A DNA stretch of 61,931 nucleotides. Origin: Deltaproteobacteria bacterium. Its GTDB lineage: Bacteria; UBA10199; JACPAL01. The translations under genes and the position numbers were made by a program. Positions within the stretch are counted from its first letter, which is position 1. The number at the start of each line of letters is the position of its first letter. The notes beneath the pieces were generated by a model. It was given only the letters and a program-made list of their open reading frames with translations. It searched no databases and was not told the origin of the DNA. Shown in pieces: positions 5,656 to 12,805 of this stretch. Location of the stretch: contig JACPAL010000022.1 in NCBI GenBank assembly GCA_016180855.1, forward strand, positions 1 to 61,931. Reading direction: 5' to 3'.

Positions 5656-6509
5656 ACAAGCCTTTCTATCACGCGTCGGACGGAGTCGGCTTTATTTAAG
5701 GTGTAAAAATGGATTCCGGGCACTTTTTTTTGAATCAGGTCACGACACTGTCGAATGGCGTGTTGAATGCCGACCTCCCGGACCTTGTCCGGATCGGACT
5801 CACTTTGTGCGAGATCCTTATAGAGCTCGCGTGGAATCCTGGCGCCGCACATGCGGGTAATTTTCTCGATCTGTTTCAAACTTAAGATTGGCATGATCCC
5901 CGGGATGATCGGGACCTTGATGCCGATCTGGCGGGCCCTGGCAACAAAGTCGAAGTAATCGGCATTATCAAAGAAAAGTTGGGTAATGACGATATCGGCC
6001 CCTGCCGCCACTTTTCTGGCGAGGTTTTTGAGGTCGGTCTCCTTGTCGGGAGACTCGATATGTCCCTCCGGGTAGCCGGCCACGGCGATACTGAATCCCC
6101 CGATCTCCTTAAGATAAGTGACGAGTTCGTTGGCATAGGAAAAGCCGTTCTCGGGTTTGACAAAAGAACCGCTTCCGGTCGGGGGATCCCCCCGGAGTGC
6201 AACAACAAGACGTAGACCCTCTCTCTTCAATTGCTCGACGTAATCACGAATAGAATCCCGGTCAGAGCCAACACAGGTGAAGTGGAATGCTGTTTCAATG
6301 CCGAGTTCCCGGTGGATCCGGACGGCAAGATCGCGCGTCAGGTTGCGTGTCGAACCCATGGCCCCATAAGTGACCGAAATAAAGGCAGGCTGGAGGGTAC
6401 GGAGTGTCTGGAGGGCCTCAAAAAGGGCCGGGAGCCCTTCCTCCTTTGGCGGGAAGATCTCAAAGGAATAGGCGATTCGGCCTTTCTGGTAGAAATCATG
6501 AAAATTCAT
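5652..6509 (-). CDS. metF: 5,10-methylenetetrahydrofolate reductase
   Basis: FAD-dependent TIM-barrel enzyme reducing 5,10-methylene-THF to 5-methyl-THF for methionine synthesis. 285 residues. Recognisable segments are SFEIFPPKEEG near the N-terminus, ISVTYGAMGSTR, LRGDPP and ITQLFFDNADY. It overlaps folD upstream and gcvT downstream by 4 bp each. The enzyme is full length and nothing is unusual. Confidence 0.97.
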   Translation of the reverse strand: MNFHDFYQKGRIAYSFEIFPPKEEGLPALFEALQTLRTLQPAFISVTYGAMGSTRNLTRDLAVRIHRELGIETAFHFTCVGSDRDSIRDYVEQLKREGLRLVVALRGDPPTGSGSFVKPENGFSYANELVTYLKEIGGFSIAVAGYPEGHIESPDKETDLKNLARKVAAGADIVITQLFFDNADYFDFVARARQIGIKVPIIPGIMPILSLKQIEKITRMCGARIPRELYKDLAQSESDPDKVREVGIQHAIRQCRDLIQKKVPGIHFYTLNKADSVRRVIERLV

Positions 6510-7363
6510 GCCGGAAGGGTCCTCTTGGCAGATTGCAGCGTGTTCCAGAGCAGCATTGCAATCGTCATGGGGCCGACGCCTCCGGGTACGGGGGTGATCC
6601 AGCCAGCCCTCTTTTGGGCCTCTCCAAATTCGACATCACCAACCAGTCTGCCATCGGCGAGACGATTGATACCGACATCGATCACGACAGCTCCTTTTTT
6701 GATCCAGTCTCCTTTAACCATCTCAGGCCGGCCTGCGGCTGCGATGAGGATATCGGCTCGGCCGACTTTTTCCGCAAGATTGGCAGTTCGGGTATGACAA
6801 ACCGTGACCGTGGCGTTTCTCTGCATCAGAAGGAGGGAGACCGGTTTTCCGACAATGTTGGATCGGCCGACGACGACCGCCTCTTTCCCCTCAATCTTGC
6901 AGTCAATCGCCTCCAACATCCGGATCACTCCAAAGGGGGTACAGGGAAGAACGGTGGGACAACCGGCGAGGAGCTTCCCCATATTGAACGGGTGAAAACC
7001 ATCGATATCCTTTTCCGGCAGAACCGCCTCAAGAATTTTTCGCTCGTCGATCTGTTTTGGGAGAGGGAGCTGGACGAGGATACCATGAATTCCCGGGTTA
7101 TGATTTAGTTTTTCGATCAGGAGAAGAACCTCTCTTTCCGTGGAGGCGGCTGGCAAGAGATATTGCTCGGCAACCATCCCTGCCTTTTTACAGGCGATCT
7201 TCTTGTTACGAACGTAGATCCCGGACGCCTCATTGTCGCCAATCAAGATGGCAGCAAGGCCTGGAACAATGCCAGACCGTTTTTTCAGGAGAGAGACTTC
7301 GTGGGCGATCTCCTCCCGAATCTGCTCAGCGATTTTTTTCCCGTCGATGATTTTGGCAGGCAC
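6506..7363 (-). CDS. folD: Methylenetetrahydrofolate dehydrogenase / cyclohydrolase
   Basis: Bifunctional Rossmann enzyme interconverting 5,10-methylene-THF, methenyl-THF and 10-formyl-THF with NADP. 285 residues. Signature stretches are the catalytic YVRNKKIACKKAG, GILVQLPLPKQID and the C-terminal TPVPGGVGPMTIAML. It lies 48 bp downstream of the FHA-GGDEF gene on the same strand and overlaps metF by 4 bp. The short upstream gap leaves no room for a glycine riboswitch. Confidence 0.97.
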   Translation of the reverse strand: MPAKIIDGKKIAEQIREEIAHEVSLLKKRSGIVPGLAAILIGDNEASGIYVRNKKIACKKAGMVAEQYLLPAASTEREVLLLIEKLNHNPGIHGILVQLPLPKQIDERKILEAVLPEKDIDGFHPFNMGKLLAGCPTVLPCTPFGVIRMLEAIDCKIEGKEAVVVGRSNIVGKPVSLLLMQRNATVTVCHTRTANLAEKVGRADILIAAAGRPEMVKGDWIKKGAVVIDVGINRLADGRLVGDVEFGEAQKRAGWITPVPGGVGPMTIAMLLWNTLQSAKRTLPA

Positions 7364-7411: not shown

Positions 7412-8293
7412 CTACCCACTGACCCGGTTCCGGCCGGCATTCTTGGATTGGTAAAGGCATTGATCGGCGATCCGGACCATCTCTTCATGACTCGCATGAT
7501 TTTTTCCAAGGAGGGATGAGAGACCTATGCTGATCGTGATCTGGATACTGTTTTCCTCAAACTGAAAGAGAGACTCTTCAATAAGTTTCCGGAGCCGTTC
7601 GGCCAGTACACGGGCACCGGCGGCATCCGTCCCCTTGAGGATCGCAACGAACTCTTCACCGCCATAGCGGGCGAAGATATCTTCGTTCCGGATGATCGAT
7701 TTTGCGAGTGCAGCGACCCGTCCCAGGATGAAATCACCGGCGGGGTGACCATAGCTGTCATTGACCTGTTTGAAATGATCGATATCGATCATCATGAGGG
7801 AGAGGGGGACGTTGTTTCTGAGACAGTAGCTGAACTCCTCATTGAGCCTCTCCTCAAAATATCTCTTGTTGTAAGCGCCGGTCAGCGCATCGACAACCGC
7901 CATCTTGTACAGTTCCGTATGAAAGATATTTTCTATCTTGTCCTGATGGGCGAATTTGATGATCGTGGATGAGGAGACCTGTATCTTGTCTCCGTCCTGC
8001 AGTTCCGCCTCCGCAACCCGGCGGCCATTCAGATAGGTTCCATTGGTGCTGCCCAGATCTTTAATGGTCGCCCGGCCATTTTTGTATTCAATGCGCAGAT
8101 GGACGCGTGAGATGCCGAGGTCATTGACCGGGATATCGGTCTCTTGCGATCGACCGAGCTCAACCTTCCCATCGGTCAAGAGATGGATCTTGCCGACGAG
8201 GGGGCCTGACAGAAAAACAATATAGGCCTGCTTCTCCCTCTTGTCGACTTCCGGAATAGGTGTGACGACTGTTTCGTCGCGTGGTTCATCCAT
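7412..8293 (-). CDS. FHA-domain diguanylate cyclase (FHA-GGDEF)
   Basis: 293 residues with an N-terminal forkhead-associated domain (about 25-115; GRSQ, ISRVHLRIE and LGSTNGTYLNG motifs) and a C-terminal GGDEF domain (about 130-290). The cyclase signature is GGEEF at 211-215, intact. The inhibitory RxxD site is at 202-205, the right five residues upstream, so c-di-GMP feedback is expected. No transmembrane segment, so it is cytoplasmic. It lies 25 bp downstream of the Ser/Thr kinase on the same strand. FHA domains bind phosphothreonine, so the kinase, or a target of it, is the natural partner; that link is inferred. Confidence 0.93.
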   Translation of the reverse strand: MDEPRDETVVTPIPEVDKREKQAYIVFLSGPLVGKIHLLTDGKVELGRSQETDIPVNDLGISRVHLRIEYKNGRATIKDLGSTNGTYLNGRRVAEAELQDGDKIQVSSSTIIKFAHQDKIENIFHTELYKMAVVDALTGAYNKRYFEERLNEEFSYCLRNNVPLSLMMIDIDHFKQVNDSYGHPAGDFILGRVAALAKSIIRNEDIFARYGGEEFVAILKGTDAAGARVLAERLRKLIEESLFQFEENSIQITISIGLSSLLGKNHASHEEMVRIADQCLYQSKNAGRNRVSG

Positions 8294-8318
8294 AGATCAG
8301 CTATAATACCTGTCTTGC

Positions 8319-10118
8319 TTATCGTAAAGCCTTTGATTTGGGAAGCTTCTTTAAGCCGACATTCACAACCTCTTTCTTTCCACCGAAGATCCTGATGGGA
8401 CGGTTCCACTCTTCATAGCCGGGCATCGAGAGACGGATCTCATAAACTGTTTCGGGGGCAACCTGTTTACGCAGAAAGGGGGTCTGTCCGACAAACTCCC
8501 CGTTCAAGAACAGATTCGCTCCGGAGGGAAGTGTATTCACCTCCAGGTCGCCGTAATTCAGTTTGAGTGGTACCGAAAGCGAGACGGTTTTACCGGGATC
8601 GACCTGAATGGTCCCCTCCCAGAAAAGGTAACGATCGGCATGAAGACCGATCTTGTAAACCTTCCCCGCCGGGAGTGAGAGAATTCCAGGTGTAGCGGAC
8701 TCTGTTTTTTGATCGTCGAGAAAGATGACGGCCCCCAGAGGTTCGGAGCTGATGGAGAGACTCCCGGAGGTTATTTCCGGCGAGGGAGGAGGTTTCTGTT
8801 CGGGAGGAGGAGGCGTTTTGGCGATCGTCTTCCTCTTTGAGACGTCCCAGGAGAGGAGAAACTGATTCATCAGGGATCGGATCTCGTGAAAGGCAGGGGG
8901 GAAGAATTCGATGCTTAAGAAAAAGAGAACAACAATCGAGGTGAACCAAGAGGCCTGTCGGAAATATTTTTTAATGGGTGGAAATTGAAACGGTTTTTTG
9001 GGAACCTTTGAAATCGCAGTTTTTTCCTCGCGTGATTCCGTGTAAACCTCCTGGTCGATGAGACGCTGCTCTATGAGGTCGGGAGAGGCATGGGCGGTCT
9101 CCTCGTGTGTATCGGACTTTTCAACGGAGGGGAGGTCCTTCTGGGTTTCCGTTGTCGATTGTTGAAGTTTTTCTTTAATGAGTGGAGTCACATCAGGAAA
9201 GAGTTCTCCCAAATAGGAGACCAGCTCACGGGGCGAAAAATCGGGATGCTGTGTTACAAGGTATTTGGTTAGTTCTCTTTGAAATTCCTCCGCGGTCTGA
9301 AATCTCTTCGTCCGATCCTTGGCGAGTGCCCTGAGAACAATCTGGTCGAGGCTTCGTGAAATCTTCTTCCGGCGGGAGGAGGGAAGGGGGACATGACCTT
9401 TTTTAACATTATGAATCGTCTCCTTGTTGTTTTTTCCCTTGAAAAGTCGCTCGCCGGTCAACAGCTCAAAAAGGATGATTCCTAACGAAAAAATGTCAGC
9501 TCGGTAGTCCAGTCGTTCCCCTTCCGCATGCTCCGGTGACATGTAGGCAAACTTGCCCTTCAAAATTCCGGAATCAGTGGTGGAGACCTTGGTCTTTGCC
9601 TTGGCAATGCCGAAATCGATGATCTTCACGGTGCCGGAGGTGGAGAGGATGATATTCTGGGGGCTAATGTCACGGTGGACGATGTGGAGCGGGTTTCCCT
9701 CCAGATCCGTCTTGCGGTGCATGTAATCAAGTCCATTCGCCACCTCGGAGCAGAGCCAGACGGCATGGGAGACCGGGATCTTTTTGTTGAGTGTCTTGAG
9801 CCTCTTCATGATCTGGGAGAGGGTCTTGCCGGGGACGTATTCCATGACGATGAAGTAGTCATCAGCCACTTTTCCAAGATCATAGACCTGTGCGATGTTG
9901 CCGTGGGAGAGCATGACAGCAATCTTCGCCTCATCCACCAGCATCTCAACAAACTCAGGTGAAGCAGCGATTTGGGGCAAGATCCTCTTGATGACGACCG
10001 GCTTTTCAATGCCTTGGGAGTCAAGGGCCCGGCCGCGGAAGATCTCCGCCATTCCCCCTTGCGCGATCTTCTCAAGGAGTTGGTATTGGCCGAATTCGTT
10101 GGTTGGCAGGTCGCTCAT
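8319..10118 (-). CDS. Membrane Ser/Thr protein kinase with two PEGA domains
   Basis: PknB-type kinase, about 599 residues. The glycine loop (KIAQGGMAEIF) is near residue 20, the catalytic IVHRDISPQN near 147-156, and the DFG near 168; all key residues are present. A single transmembrane segment (SIVVLFFLSIEFF) lies near residue 390. Two tandem PEGA-type beta domains at about 455-590 would be on the outer side. This layout is common in myxobacteria and relatives. I chose ATG 10118 because the fold begins soon after it. ATG 10145 is in frame but lies in a repeat-derived sequence (10134-10165). It is divergent from the FlhB-like gene and upstream of the FHA-GGDEF gene. Confidence 0.93.
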   Translation of the reverse strand: MSDLPTNEFGQYQLLEKIAQGGMAEIFRGRALDSQGIEKPVVIKRILPQIAASPEFVEMLVDEAKIAVMLSHGNIAQVYDLGKVADDYFIVMEYVPGKTLSQIMKRLKTLNKKIPVSHAVWLCSEVANGLDYMHRKTDLEGNPLHIVHRDISPQNIILSTSGTVKIIDFGIAKAKTKVSTTDSGILKGKFAYMSPEHAEGERLDYRADIFSLGIILFELLTGERLFKGKNNKETIHNVKKGHVPLPSSRRKKISRSLDQIVLRALAKDRTKRFQTAEEFQRELTKYLVTQHPDFSPRELVSYLGELFPDVTPLIKEKLQQSTTETQKDLPSVEKSDTHEETAHASPDLIEQRLIDQEVYTESREEKTAISKVPKKPFQFPPIKKYFRQASWFTSIVVLFFLSIEFFPPAFHEIRSLMNQFLLSWDVSKRKTIAKTPPPPEQKPPPSPEITSGSLSISSEPLGAVIFLDDQKTESATPGILSLPAGKVYKIGLHADRYLFWEGTIQVDPGKTVSLSVPLKLNYGDLEVNTLPSGANLFLNGEFVGQTPFLRKQVAPETVYEIRLSMPGYEEWNRPIRIFGGKKEVVNVGLKKLPKSKALR

Positions 10119-10133
10119 AACTGATGCTTTAAA

Positions 10134-10165
10134 CCCAAAAGCCATTTTTCAACACGCTCATTATA
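10134..10165. repeat. Solo repeat arm shared with 46532-46563
   Basis: 22 identical bases (10134-10155 and 46532-46553), extending to 32 with 2 mismatches. The other copy is the outer right arm of the GTAC-core palindrome at 46.4 kb. Both sit at the 5' end of a minus-strand gene and carry an in-frame ATG. It is probably a remnant of the same palindromic repeat family. Confidence 0.6.
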
Positions 10166-10269
10166 ACAGAAATAGGGCTTATTTAAATTATCTTTTTGTT
10201 ATAGTATGTTAGCATCTTAATGGGACAAATGAGCCGATAATTTTGGTATAAGGACTTAAAACAAGGCCA

Positions 10270-11352
10270 ATGGCTGAATCAAGCTCCCAGGAAAAGACCG
10301 AACAACCGACCCCCAAACGGCTCCGTGACGCCCGTAAAAAGGGGCAGGTCTATAAAAGCCGGGATATGGAGACGGTCATGGTGATGATAGCCGCCTTTGC
10401 TACCCTCGCCCTGAGCCTGCCCTACGTTTCGGCCGAGCTGAAGACGTTGATGGAGAACAGCTTCAAGGCGATTGGACAGAGCGATTTTGAACCGAATCTC
10501 ATAGCGGATCTTGGACGCGCTTCTCTTATCACCCTGATCAAGGTCTCCGCCCCGTTGCTGGCGACCGTCTTTTTAGTGGCGGCCCTGATCGGATTTCTTC
10601 AGGTGGGGCCTGTTTTTTCGGTTGAACCGCTCAAGCCCCAGACGAAACGGCTCAATATGGTTGAAAATCTCAAGAATCTCCTTAAGCCAAAGATCCTGTT
10701 TGAGCTGGCCAAAAATATTTTCAAGGTTGTTGTCGTTTTTGCCATTGCCTATTTTGTTTTGAAATCGCTGCTTGAACCTTTTCTCATGACTGTGACTGTT
10801 CCCCTGGGAGGTTCAGCCCGGTTTGCGGGACTGATACTGATTCGCTTTCTGGTGAGATTTTTCATCTTCTTCATCATTATTGCGATTATCGATTTGATGA
10901 TGCAGCGGCGCGAATTCATCAAGAACCTCCGGATGACGAAAGAAGAGGTGAAAAGGGAATATAAGGAGGATGAGGGGGACCCCCTCATTCGATCGCAGCG
11001 TCGCCAGATCCATATGGAGATGGCGATGGGGGATACCCGCCAGGCGGTCCGCCAGGCGGACGTTGTTGTGACAAACCCGACCCATCTTGCGATCGTTATC
11101 AAATACAATCGTGAGGAGATGGTTGCCCCCCAGATCGTTGCCAAGGGGCAGAGACTTTTTGCCGAGCAGATCCGCGCCTATGCAGAGGAGTTTGGGATAC
11201 CGGTCGTCCGGAACATTCCACTTGCCTGGTCGCTGATCGAACTTGAGATCGGCGATGAAATCCCCGAAAAACTATATCTGGCCGTGGCCGAGATCCTGAC
11301 CTTTGTTTACCGGCTCAAGGAACAGAAGCAAGACCGGCCGAAGACGACTTGA
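10270..11352 (+). CDS. FlhB/SctU family type III export switch protein
   Basis: 360 residues. The N-terminus (EKTEQPTPKRLRDARKKGQV) is typical of FlhB/YscU proteins. Four hydrophobic segments lie at about 35-55, 90-115, 145-175 and 185-210. The autocleavage motif NPTH is at 269-272, followed by the conserved soluble domain. In this family the protein sits in the inner membrane at the export gate and switches substrate class. No other flagellar or type III gene lies in the window, so flagellar versus non-flagellar cannot be decided. Its last 38 bp overlap the 3' end of the convergent lipoprotein gene. Confidence 0.92.
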   Translation: MAESSSQEKTEQPTPKRLRDARKKGQVYKSRDMETVMVMIAAFATLALSLPYVSAELKTLMENSFKAIGQSDFEPNLIADLGRASLITLIKVSAPLLATVFLVAALIGFLQVGPVFSVEPLKPQTKRLNMVENLKNLLKPKILFELAKNIFKVVVVFAIAYFVLKSLLEPFLMTVTVPLGGSARFAGLILIRFLVRFFIFFIIIAIIDLMMQRREFIKNLRMTKEEVKREYKEDEGDPLIRSQRRQIHMEMAMGDTRQAVRQADVVVTNPTHLAIVIKYNREEMVAPQIVAKGQRLFAEQIRAYAEEFGIPVVRNIPLAWSLIELEIGDEIPEKLYLAVAEILTFVYRLKEQKQDRPKTT

Positions 11353-12805
11353 GTTCGCAGCAACCGGTCGTTGTGTTACATTGCACGTTAGAGGTCTCAA
11401 ACTCATCCCGTGGGTTGTCGTCGGCAAAGAGTTGACACTCAAAGTCGTTGGCACAGGCCGATGTTTCACACGCATCGGCATCGACCGGGCACCCTTCGGC
11501 AAAGCTGTTTGTCTCGGTACTGTCGAAATCGTCGCAGTCGTCACAATAATCGATTCCGTCGTTGTCAAAATCGGTGGCACATGCCTCCTCCCCGTAACAT
11601 TCCGTTGTCTTAACGGGATCGAAGTCGTCGCAATCGGTGCAGATGCCAAAGTCATCGTTGTCGTTGTCCTGCTCGCAGAAATCGGCCATAGCGGTACTGT
11701 AGCATTCAGTTTGCACAAGGGCATCGTCGTCATCGCAGTCGATGCAGAGTCCAAAGCCGTCTGCGTCGTTGTCCTCCTCACAGAAGGCGTCACTAAAACA
11801 CTCATAGCTGCTGTCCGGATCCCAGTCGTCGCAGTCGTCACACAGTCCGAAGCCGTCATTGTCGCTGTCGATCGCACAGAATTCATCCTCGTAGCATTCC
11901 ACCGTGGAAGTCGCATCGCCATCGTCGCAATCGACGCAGAACGGGACCCCATCACTATCCCCATCGTCACCACAGGCGTCGTAGAGGTCCGGAATGCAGT
12001 CGCCGTCGGTGTCTTCGGAATCGGGTGTGCAGGCAAAATCACTGTCGCAGAAGTCGGGGACATCATCGTTGTCCGAATCCTCAAAAAAGGTGTCAAGCTG
12101 ACTTTTAGCCCCTCCCAACCTCAGCGCCTGGAGCTCGCTGGACCAAAGGGACTCATAGATATCGGGCACGTTGTCGCCATCGCTGTCGAACTTGTCGGCA
12201 TTCACGCAGCCGGTGTCGTTTTGAAAGTCACCCGCGTCAGTAACACCATCACCATCATCGTCCGTATCAGCCGAATCGGCAATCCCATCGTCATCCTGAT
12301 CCACCTGCGTACAAATATCGATCGCCGAAACGACATTACTTCCCTGAACGTCGCCGCTCCCCAGATTGATCGCCGCTGTTGAGTTGTCATCATCCGCAAA
12401 GACAGGAATAGCCCCCTCATAACTGTTTGCAGAACAGCCCAGTGAGGCGACATAATTATCCGGGCAACCATTGCTATCACCATCGCTGCCGGAGAAGAGG
12501 GCGCAGTAGCAGAAACTCTCAAGCGGGAGGTCAATCGTGAAGCTGCAATCAGACCCAATCTTTTTCACACTGACTGTTCCATCATATCCGCTACAGCAGA
12601 CCGAGACATCCCCACAGGCAAGCGTTGCTTTTTTGATTGTGAGGGCCTGATGAGGACTTTTCAGACGGACGCTCTGCAAGGAACTTGCCGAGACTGATCC
12701 CGTCATTGCTCGAGTTGCCCCAGCCGTTCCACTACTGCCGCATCCTTGCAAACTGACGAGAAGTAGGACAGCCAAGACAGCTACTCCATGATGGAATCGA
12801 TACAT
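11315..12805 (-). CDS. Lipoprotein with Cys/Asp-rich calcium-binding-type repeats
   Basis: 496 residues. A lipoprotein signal peptide ends in the lipobox SLQGC. A middle stretch carries TSP3-like DxDxDG units (QVDQDDDGIADSADTDDDGD). At about residues 280-430 there are five or so modules of roughly 32-35 residues of the form DNDGFGLCDDCDDWDPD followed by ECxxxxxFC. These resemble MopE-type metal-binding motifs with paired cysteines added. Ca2+ binding and disulfide stabilisation are inferred. The product is probably anchored to the outer membrane or exposed outside the cell. It is convergent with and overlaps the FlhB-like gene. Confidence 0.85.
   Translation of the reverse strand: MYRFHHGVAVLAVLLLVSLQGCGSSGTAGATRAMTGSVSASSLQSVRLKSPHQALTIKKATLACGDVSVCCSGYDGTVSVKKIGSDCSFTIDLPLESFCYCALFSGSDGDSNGCPDNYVASLGCSANSYEGAIPVFADDDNSTAAINLGSGDVQGSNVVSAIDICTQVDQDDDGIADSADTDDDGDGVTDAGDFQNDTGCVNADKFDSDGDNVPDIYESLWSSELQALRLGGAKSQLDTFFEDSDNDDVPDFCDSDFACTPDSEDTDGDCIPDLYDACGDDGDSDGVPFCVDCDDGDATSTVECYEDEFCAIDSDNDGFGLCDDCDDWDPDSSYECFSDAFCEEDNDADGFGLCIDCDDDDALVQTECYSTAMADFCEQDNDNDDFGICTDCDDFDPVKTTECYGEEACATDFDNDGIDYCDDCDDFDSTETNSFAEGCPVDADACETSACANDFECQLFADDNPRDEFETSNVQCNTTTGCCELKSSSAGLASVP

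Follow-up and report, generated by a model that had tools for sequence, protein, structure and literature searches.

In the 61,931-nucleotide stretch of DNA analysed here (the window), a gene for a membrane Ser/Thr kinase lies directly upstream of a gene for a DgcB-type diguanylate cyclase. By sequence, the two genes form a pair that recurs throughout the phylum of the source organism, with intact domains and motifs, an invariant threonine (Thr8) in the N-terminal tail of the cyclase, and shared absence of the two genes. The reading that we regard as moderately probable is that the kinase phosphorylates Thr8 and that the FHA domain of the cyclase binds the phosphorylated residue, which would activate the GGDEF dimer. 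An unspecified envelope signal would activate the membrane-anchored kinase, and the active kinase would, to judge from the linkage of the genes, phosphorylate Thr8 in the cyclase tail. On the model of DgcB, phospho-Thr8 would then be bound by an FHA domain of the cyclase, either that of its own subunit or that of the partner, and this binding would rearrange the dimer into a form in which its GGDEF domains synthesise c-di-GMP. The product would bind the RxxD site, whereupon synthesis would stop. The probable effectors of the pathway are PilZ proteins, which were found in 46/46 genomes of the phylum, with two in the source genome.

The kinase gene (ORF and Pfam; 8319..10145, minus strand) encodes a protein of 608 aa, or of 599 aa if the start is at 10118. 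This alternative start (Met10), which matches the end coordinate given in the preliminary description, is plausible because the orthologues align from about residue 13 on. After an intergenic gap of 25 bp in the ORF map of the window follows the cyclase gene (ORF, Pfam and PDB match; 7412..8293, minus strand; 293 aa), which is separated by 48 bp from folD (ORF and Pfam; 6506..7363, minus strand) and then metF, gcvT, gcvH and gcvPA, all on the minus strand. The spacing of 25 bp between kinase and cyclase and of 48 bp between cyclase and folD-metF-gcv given in the preliminary description was confirmed. The downstream neighbour folD, and flhB (ORF and Pfam; 10270..11352, plus strand), which is divergent from the kinase, are context outside the proposed switch. 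A promoter scan called two sigma70-like sites, equal to the number in shuffled sequences; one of them (10160-10187) lies just before the kinase but carries no weight as evidence. Convergent with flhB, and overlapping its 3' end by 38 bp, is an ORF for a 496-aa lipoprotein-like protein (11315-12805, minus strand) with many DxDxDG-type repeats and without a Pfam match.

The cyclase consists of a phosphothreonine-binding FHA domain (Pfam residues 45-106, E 1.8e-20; 7976..8161, minus strand) and a GGDEF domain (Pfam residues 132-290, E 5e-47; 7424..7900, minus strand). The GGEEF motif (residues 211-215; 7649-7663, minus strand) and the RxxD I-site (R202/D205; 7679-7690, minus strand) are intact, and both are invariant in 38 cyclase orthologues, as are residues R48, S62, R63 and N84 of the FHA pocket; T83 is nearly so (over 90%). 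The best PDB match was 6hbz (E 3e-53, aligned over residues 25-291), the structure of DgcB, which triggers prey invasion in Bdellovibrio. DgcB was also the top fold match of the AlphaFold model (mean pLDDT 89.6), in which the tail has low confidence (residues 1-3 and 11-18 below 50, residues 4-10 somewhat higher) and which therefore speaks neither for nor against docking. Judged by these matches, the window cyclase adds to a known type of enzyme: it is a DgcB homologue with tail-FHA-GGDEF architecture.

In DgcB (Bd0742, PDB 6hbz) the ligand of the FHA domain is the protein's own N-terminal tail, phosphorylated at Thr14 (PMC6733907). In the tail of the window cyclase, MDEPRDETVVTPIPEV, Thr8 (codon 8270..8272, minus strand; motif D6-E-T8-V-V-T-P-I) falls at the Thr14 position and is the proposed phosphosite and FHA self-ligand: the stretch RDETVVTPI aligns with LEKpTSIVA of DgcB, with an acidic residue at -2, the threonine, and a hydrophobic residue at +2. 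Among the aligned cyclase copies of the phylum Thr8 is invariant (44/44), the -2 residue is Asp or Glu (44/44), the +2 residue is always Val, Ile or Leu, and +5 is always hydrophobic. The pattern [DE]xT[VI][VIL] was present in 41/44 tails, whereas shuffled tails gave a mean of 0.8 and a maximum of 6. Outside the phylum [DE]xT occurred in 29/37 FHA-GGDEF tails as compared with 10 in shuffles, which suggests that the tail arose early in this type of cyclase. The residue at +3, which is important for FHA specificity but does not define the cyclase type, is Thr in 35/44 copies (T11 in the window), and positions -3, +4 and +7 are variable. Since a hydrophobic +3 residue is absent from the window cyclase, the assignment is to a DgcB homologue of like architecture, not of identical ligand specificity. 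By analogy with DgcB we infer that in the window cyclase the FHA domain binds phospho-Thr8 and that this activates the enzyme.

In the kinase, the catalytic domain (Pkinase residues 21-287, E 3e-42; 9285..10085, minus strand) has K53, HRD (157-159) and DFG (177-179), and K53, D159 and D177-G179 are invariant in the orthologue alignment. The catalytic motifs of both proteins and the inhibitory site of the cyclase had been described before as intact, and the motif check and the orthologue alignments bear this out. Hydropathy predicts a transmembrane segment at residues 401-419 (8889..8945, minus strand). Beyond it are PEGA domains (Pfam, two stretches, E 3e-20), the second at residues 532-599 (8349..8552, minus strand) and the first repeat just before it, which in the topology that we infer are presumably outside the cytoplasm. 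A membrane helix was found in 34/34 aligned orthologous kinases and PEGA in 30/34. Three kinases (L072, L073 and L079) stop just after the helix, without PEGA, yet retain the cyclase neighbour; a further one (L075) has a short tail beyond the helix and no PEGA. Since 3/34 orthologous kinases end in this way, PEGA is usual but not required for pairing, and the earlier proposal that PEGA is the sensor does not hold generally.

The linker between the catalytic domain and the helix bears on a different reading, in which the kinase autophosphorylates on a Thr of its activation loop or of this juxtamembrane linker, the FHA domain docks there, and the resulting membrane recruitment controls the cyclase in place of a self-tail. 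Within an otherwise diverged linker there are clade-conserved [DE]-x-T/S motifs: TPxLI[IL][DE]x[TS] in 16/16 kinases of one clade, [DE]xTx[IVL]V[DN] in 5/5 of another, and an EETAHAS-like motif, including [DE]-x-T at Thr350, in 5-6 of the 6 nearest orthologues of the window kinase. Thr350 (codon 9096..9098, minus strand; HEETAHASPDLI) may, from the orthologue linkers, be a site of autophosphorylation and FHA docking, and in L076 and L077 the kinase linker and the cyclase tail are alike (EETEVDR/EEKTEVDR and EKTEIRR/EKTEIRK, respectively). Because of these motifs docking on the kinase is conceivable, and it may be a first step before tail phosphorylation. As the main switch we consider it unlikely, because DgcB, the closest solved relative, uses its own phosphothreonine tail and because Thr8 is invariant here, which docking on the kinase leaves unexplained. 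Moreover, the motifs in the linker are not the same from clade to clade, and the clade-specific patterns, selected once the sequences had been looked at, are no more than a lead. Generic [DE]xT was uninformative in the kinase linkers (34/34 observed as compared with 25 expected in shuffles).

Phosphorylation of Thr8 by the neighbouring kinase, the favoured reading, agrees with the distribution of the two genes. A cyclase orthologue was found in 43/46 genomes of the phylum, nearly always as a single copy, and in 37/42 assessable genomes the fetched neighbourhood had the kinase immediately upstream in the same orientation. Several pairs overlap by 4 bp (stop/start), which suggests translational coupling. 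As for the exceptions, in G010 the kinase is upstream with one ORF intervening, in four genomes (G020-G023, families f12/f13) the cyclase is located away from the kinase, and in G011 both genes are at contig ends. The intervening ORF in G010 (L042:7790-9118) is on the opposite strand and encodes 442 aa. In family f13 a 218-aa FHA-only protein is encoded between the kinase and flhB (L167:3806-4462, L170:1407-2063). Outside the phylum, a Ser/Thr kinase was adjacent in 2/35 FHA-GGDEF loci (L218 and L220). The difference between inside and outside has a Fisher p of 4e-14, which serves as a description only and not as a real probability, because the genomes are related and p is uncorrected for relatedness. 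Bdellovibrionota and Myxococcota were each represented by one FHA-GGDEF locus (L091 and L085), and no adjacent kinase was detected by BLAST in either. Whereas the folD-gcv and flhB neighbours vary between genomes, the pair persists. The source genome (2.2 Mb, 96% complete) has only six clear Ser/Thr kinases and two strong GGDEF domains according to a domain search, and given these small numbers and the recurrence in the phylum, the adjacency exceeds chance. Chance neighbourhood was ruled out on the same grounds and by the rarity of such pairs outside the phylum.

In a maximum-likelihood tree, 35 pair-associated kinases form one clade (support 100/99), which also takes in the unlinked or contig-end kinases of G020, G021, G022, G011 and G018. 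G018 is uninformative because the contig breaks inside the kinase. In families f12/f13 the kinase still adjoins flhB, so it is the cyclase that has moved. Two genomes, a small number, have neither the cyclase nor an orthologous kinase (G002, 97% complete, and G045, 95%), their best matches belonging to a sister clade. In G023 (84% complete) the cyclase is present and no orthologous kinase was seen. The preliminary description had proposed a route from the kinase to the cyclase and had named a pair that is not conserved as a finding that would refute it; the pair is kept across the phylum. The route itself is well supported by this pairing, the single kinase clade, the shared absence and the intact motifs, whereas binding of the FHA domain to the kinase, by which it was proposed to run, is probably not the main switch.

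The same distribution argues against the possibility that the kinase has other substrates, that Thr8 is phosphorylated by another or by several Ser/Thr kinases, and that the pair is no more than an old operon. There are five further Ser/Thr kinases in the source genome, the genes are unlinked in f12/f13, and the tail Thr of OdhI can be phosphorylated by several kinases (PMC2784874). The pairing nevertheless survives rearrangement of all other neighbours, both genes are absent together in G002 and G045, and it is one orthologous kinase clade that accompanies the cyclase, all of which makes this explanation quite improbable. Still less credence can be given to a switch of the opposite sign, in which binding of phospho-Thr8 shuts the cyclase down as in the closed state of GarA and OdhI. 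Structurally, these two are the closest FHA proteins with a self-tail, and they work by occlusion (PMC6733907), and their chains were among the structure matches of the window FHA domain in the PDB search. Against such a switch, locking the tail of DgcB in the FHA groove activates the enzyme, and the tail-locked mutant is constitutively active (PMC6733907).

A role of the pair as regulator of the folD-metF-gcv operon, or as its passenger, with a link from c-di-GMP to one-carbon metabolism, is hardly credible: no terminator-like site was called in the 48 bp between cyclase and folD, and folD directly follows the cyclase in about 12 genomes of several families, but folD-gcv are housekeeping genes, cyclase and folD are separated by other genes even in L038, the nearest relative, and the other genomes keep the pair without folD. 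The possible co-expression with one-carbon metabolism noted earlier thus reduces to real synteny; since the pair persists elsewhere without folD-gcv, a functional tie is not indicated, and one-carbon co-regulation was rejected as the meaning of the locus. A flagellar tie through flhB was likewise rejected. Although flhB adjoins the kinase in many families, G019 (98% complete) has the pair but no FlhB, and in G002 the reverse holds.

Kinases of the sister clade immediately precede FHA-sigma54 activators at eight loci (L174, L184, L169, L171, L172, L176, L181 and L186). They are PEGA kinases of about 850 aa, with five PEGA stretches in L174. These pairs resemble the window pair in the related kinase clade, in the FHA partner directly downstream and in a conserved threonine in the N-terminal tail of the partner. 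They differ in output, a sigma54 transcription activator, in the tail motif, T[QE][LIV][LI], and in an FHA domain with GK for the usual GR. Their likeness suggests a module of a PEGA kinase and a self-tail FHA effector with exchangeable output. We give even chances to the wider proposal that membrane PEGA kinases, each beside a dedicated self-tail FHA effector with an interchangeable output (c-di-GMP synthase or sigma54 activator), form a phylum-wide class, the cyclase branch of which would supply a candidate type of kinase for enzymes like DgcB. The source genome itself (G000, contig C3, L182:2024-4763) has another FHA-sigma54 activator, which lacks a tail and has a Ser/Thr kinase after it.

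If the favoured reading, tail phosphorylation by the paired kinase, is true, it would connect envelope sensing to c-di-GMP simply and directly through a eukaryote-like kinase, and the sister FHA-sigma54 pair suggests that the module is reusable. With a DgcB-type cyclase beside one orthologous kinase and Thr8 in all copies, the question of which kinase acts on which site becomes a two-protein question in vitro.

Of the known systems, DgcB is the most closely comparable. The two cyclases can be aligned over their full tail-FHA-GGDEF length with 38% identity and share GGEEF and the RxxD I-site; pocket residues R61, S75, R76, T96 and N97 of DgcB correspond to R48, S62, R63, T83 and N84, and both tails have the Thr with an acidic residue at -2. 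The +3 residue is Val (V17) in DgcB and Thr in the window cyclase. The kinase for DgcB was not identified in 2019, when Bd3148 was suggested, and a putative phosphatase (bd0740) is encoded in the dgcB operon (PMC6733907); no later identification of the kinase was found in the literature searched. The window cyclase, unlike DgcB, has a transmembrane PEGA kinase encoded directly upstream. GarA and OdhI (kinases PknB/PknG) also combine an FHA domain with an N-terminal tail that can be phosphorylated on Thr, but they lack a GGDEF domain, and their targets are separate metabolic enzymes, which they inhibit. The window cyclase does not belong with them, as its tail (DETVVT) is not of the ETTS type and its GGDEF domain is fused. 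In Sorangium cellulosum, BE21_29150 is a kinase-tail-FHA-GGDEF fusion, the kinase domain of which was compared with Bd3148 and PknG (PMC6733907). Like the window pair it joins a Ser/Thr kinase to tail-FHA-GGDEF, in one protein instead of two and without the separate membrane PEGA kinase. What is new in comparison with these systems is that a dedicated kinase goes with the cyclase phylum-wide, together with the existence of the sister module.
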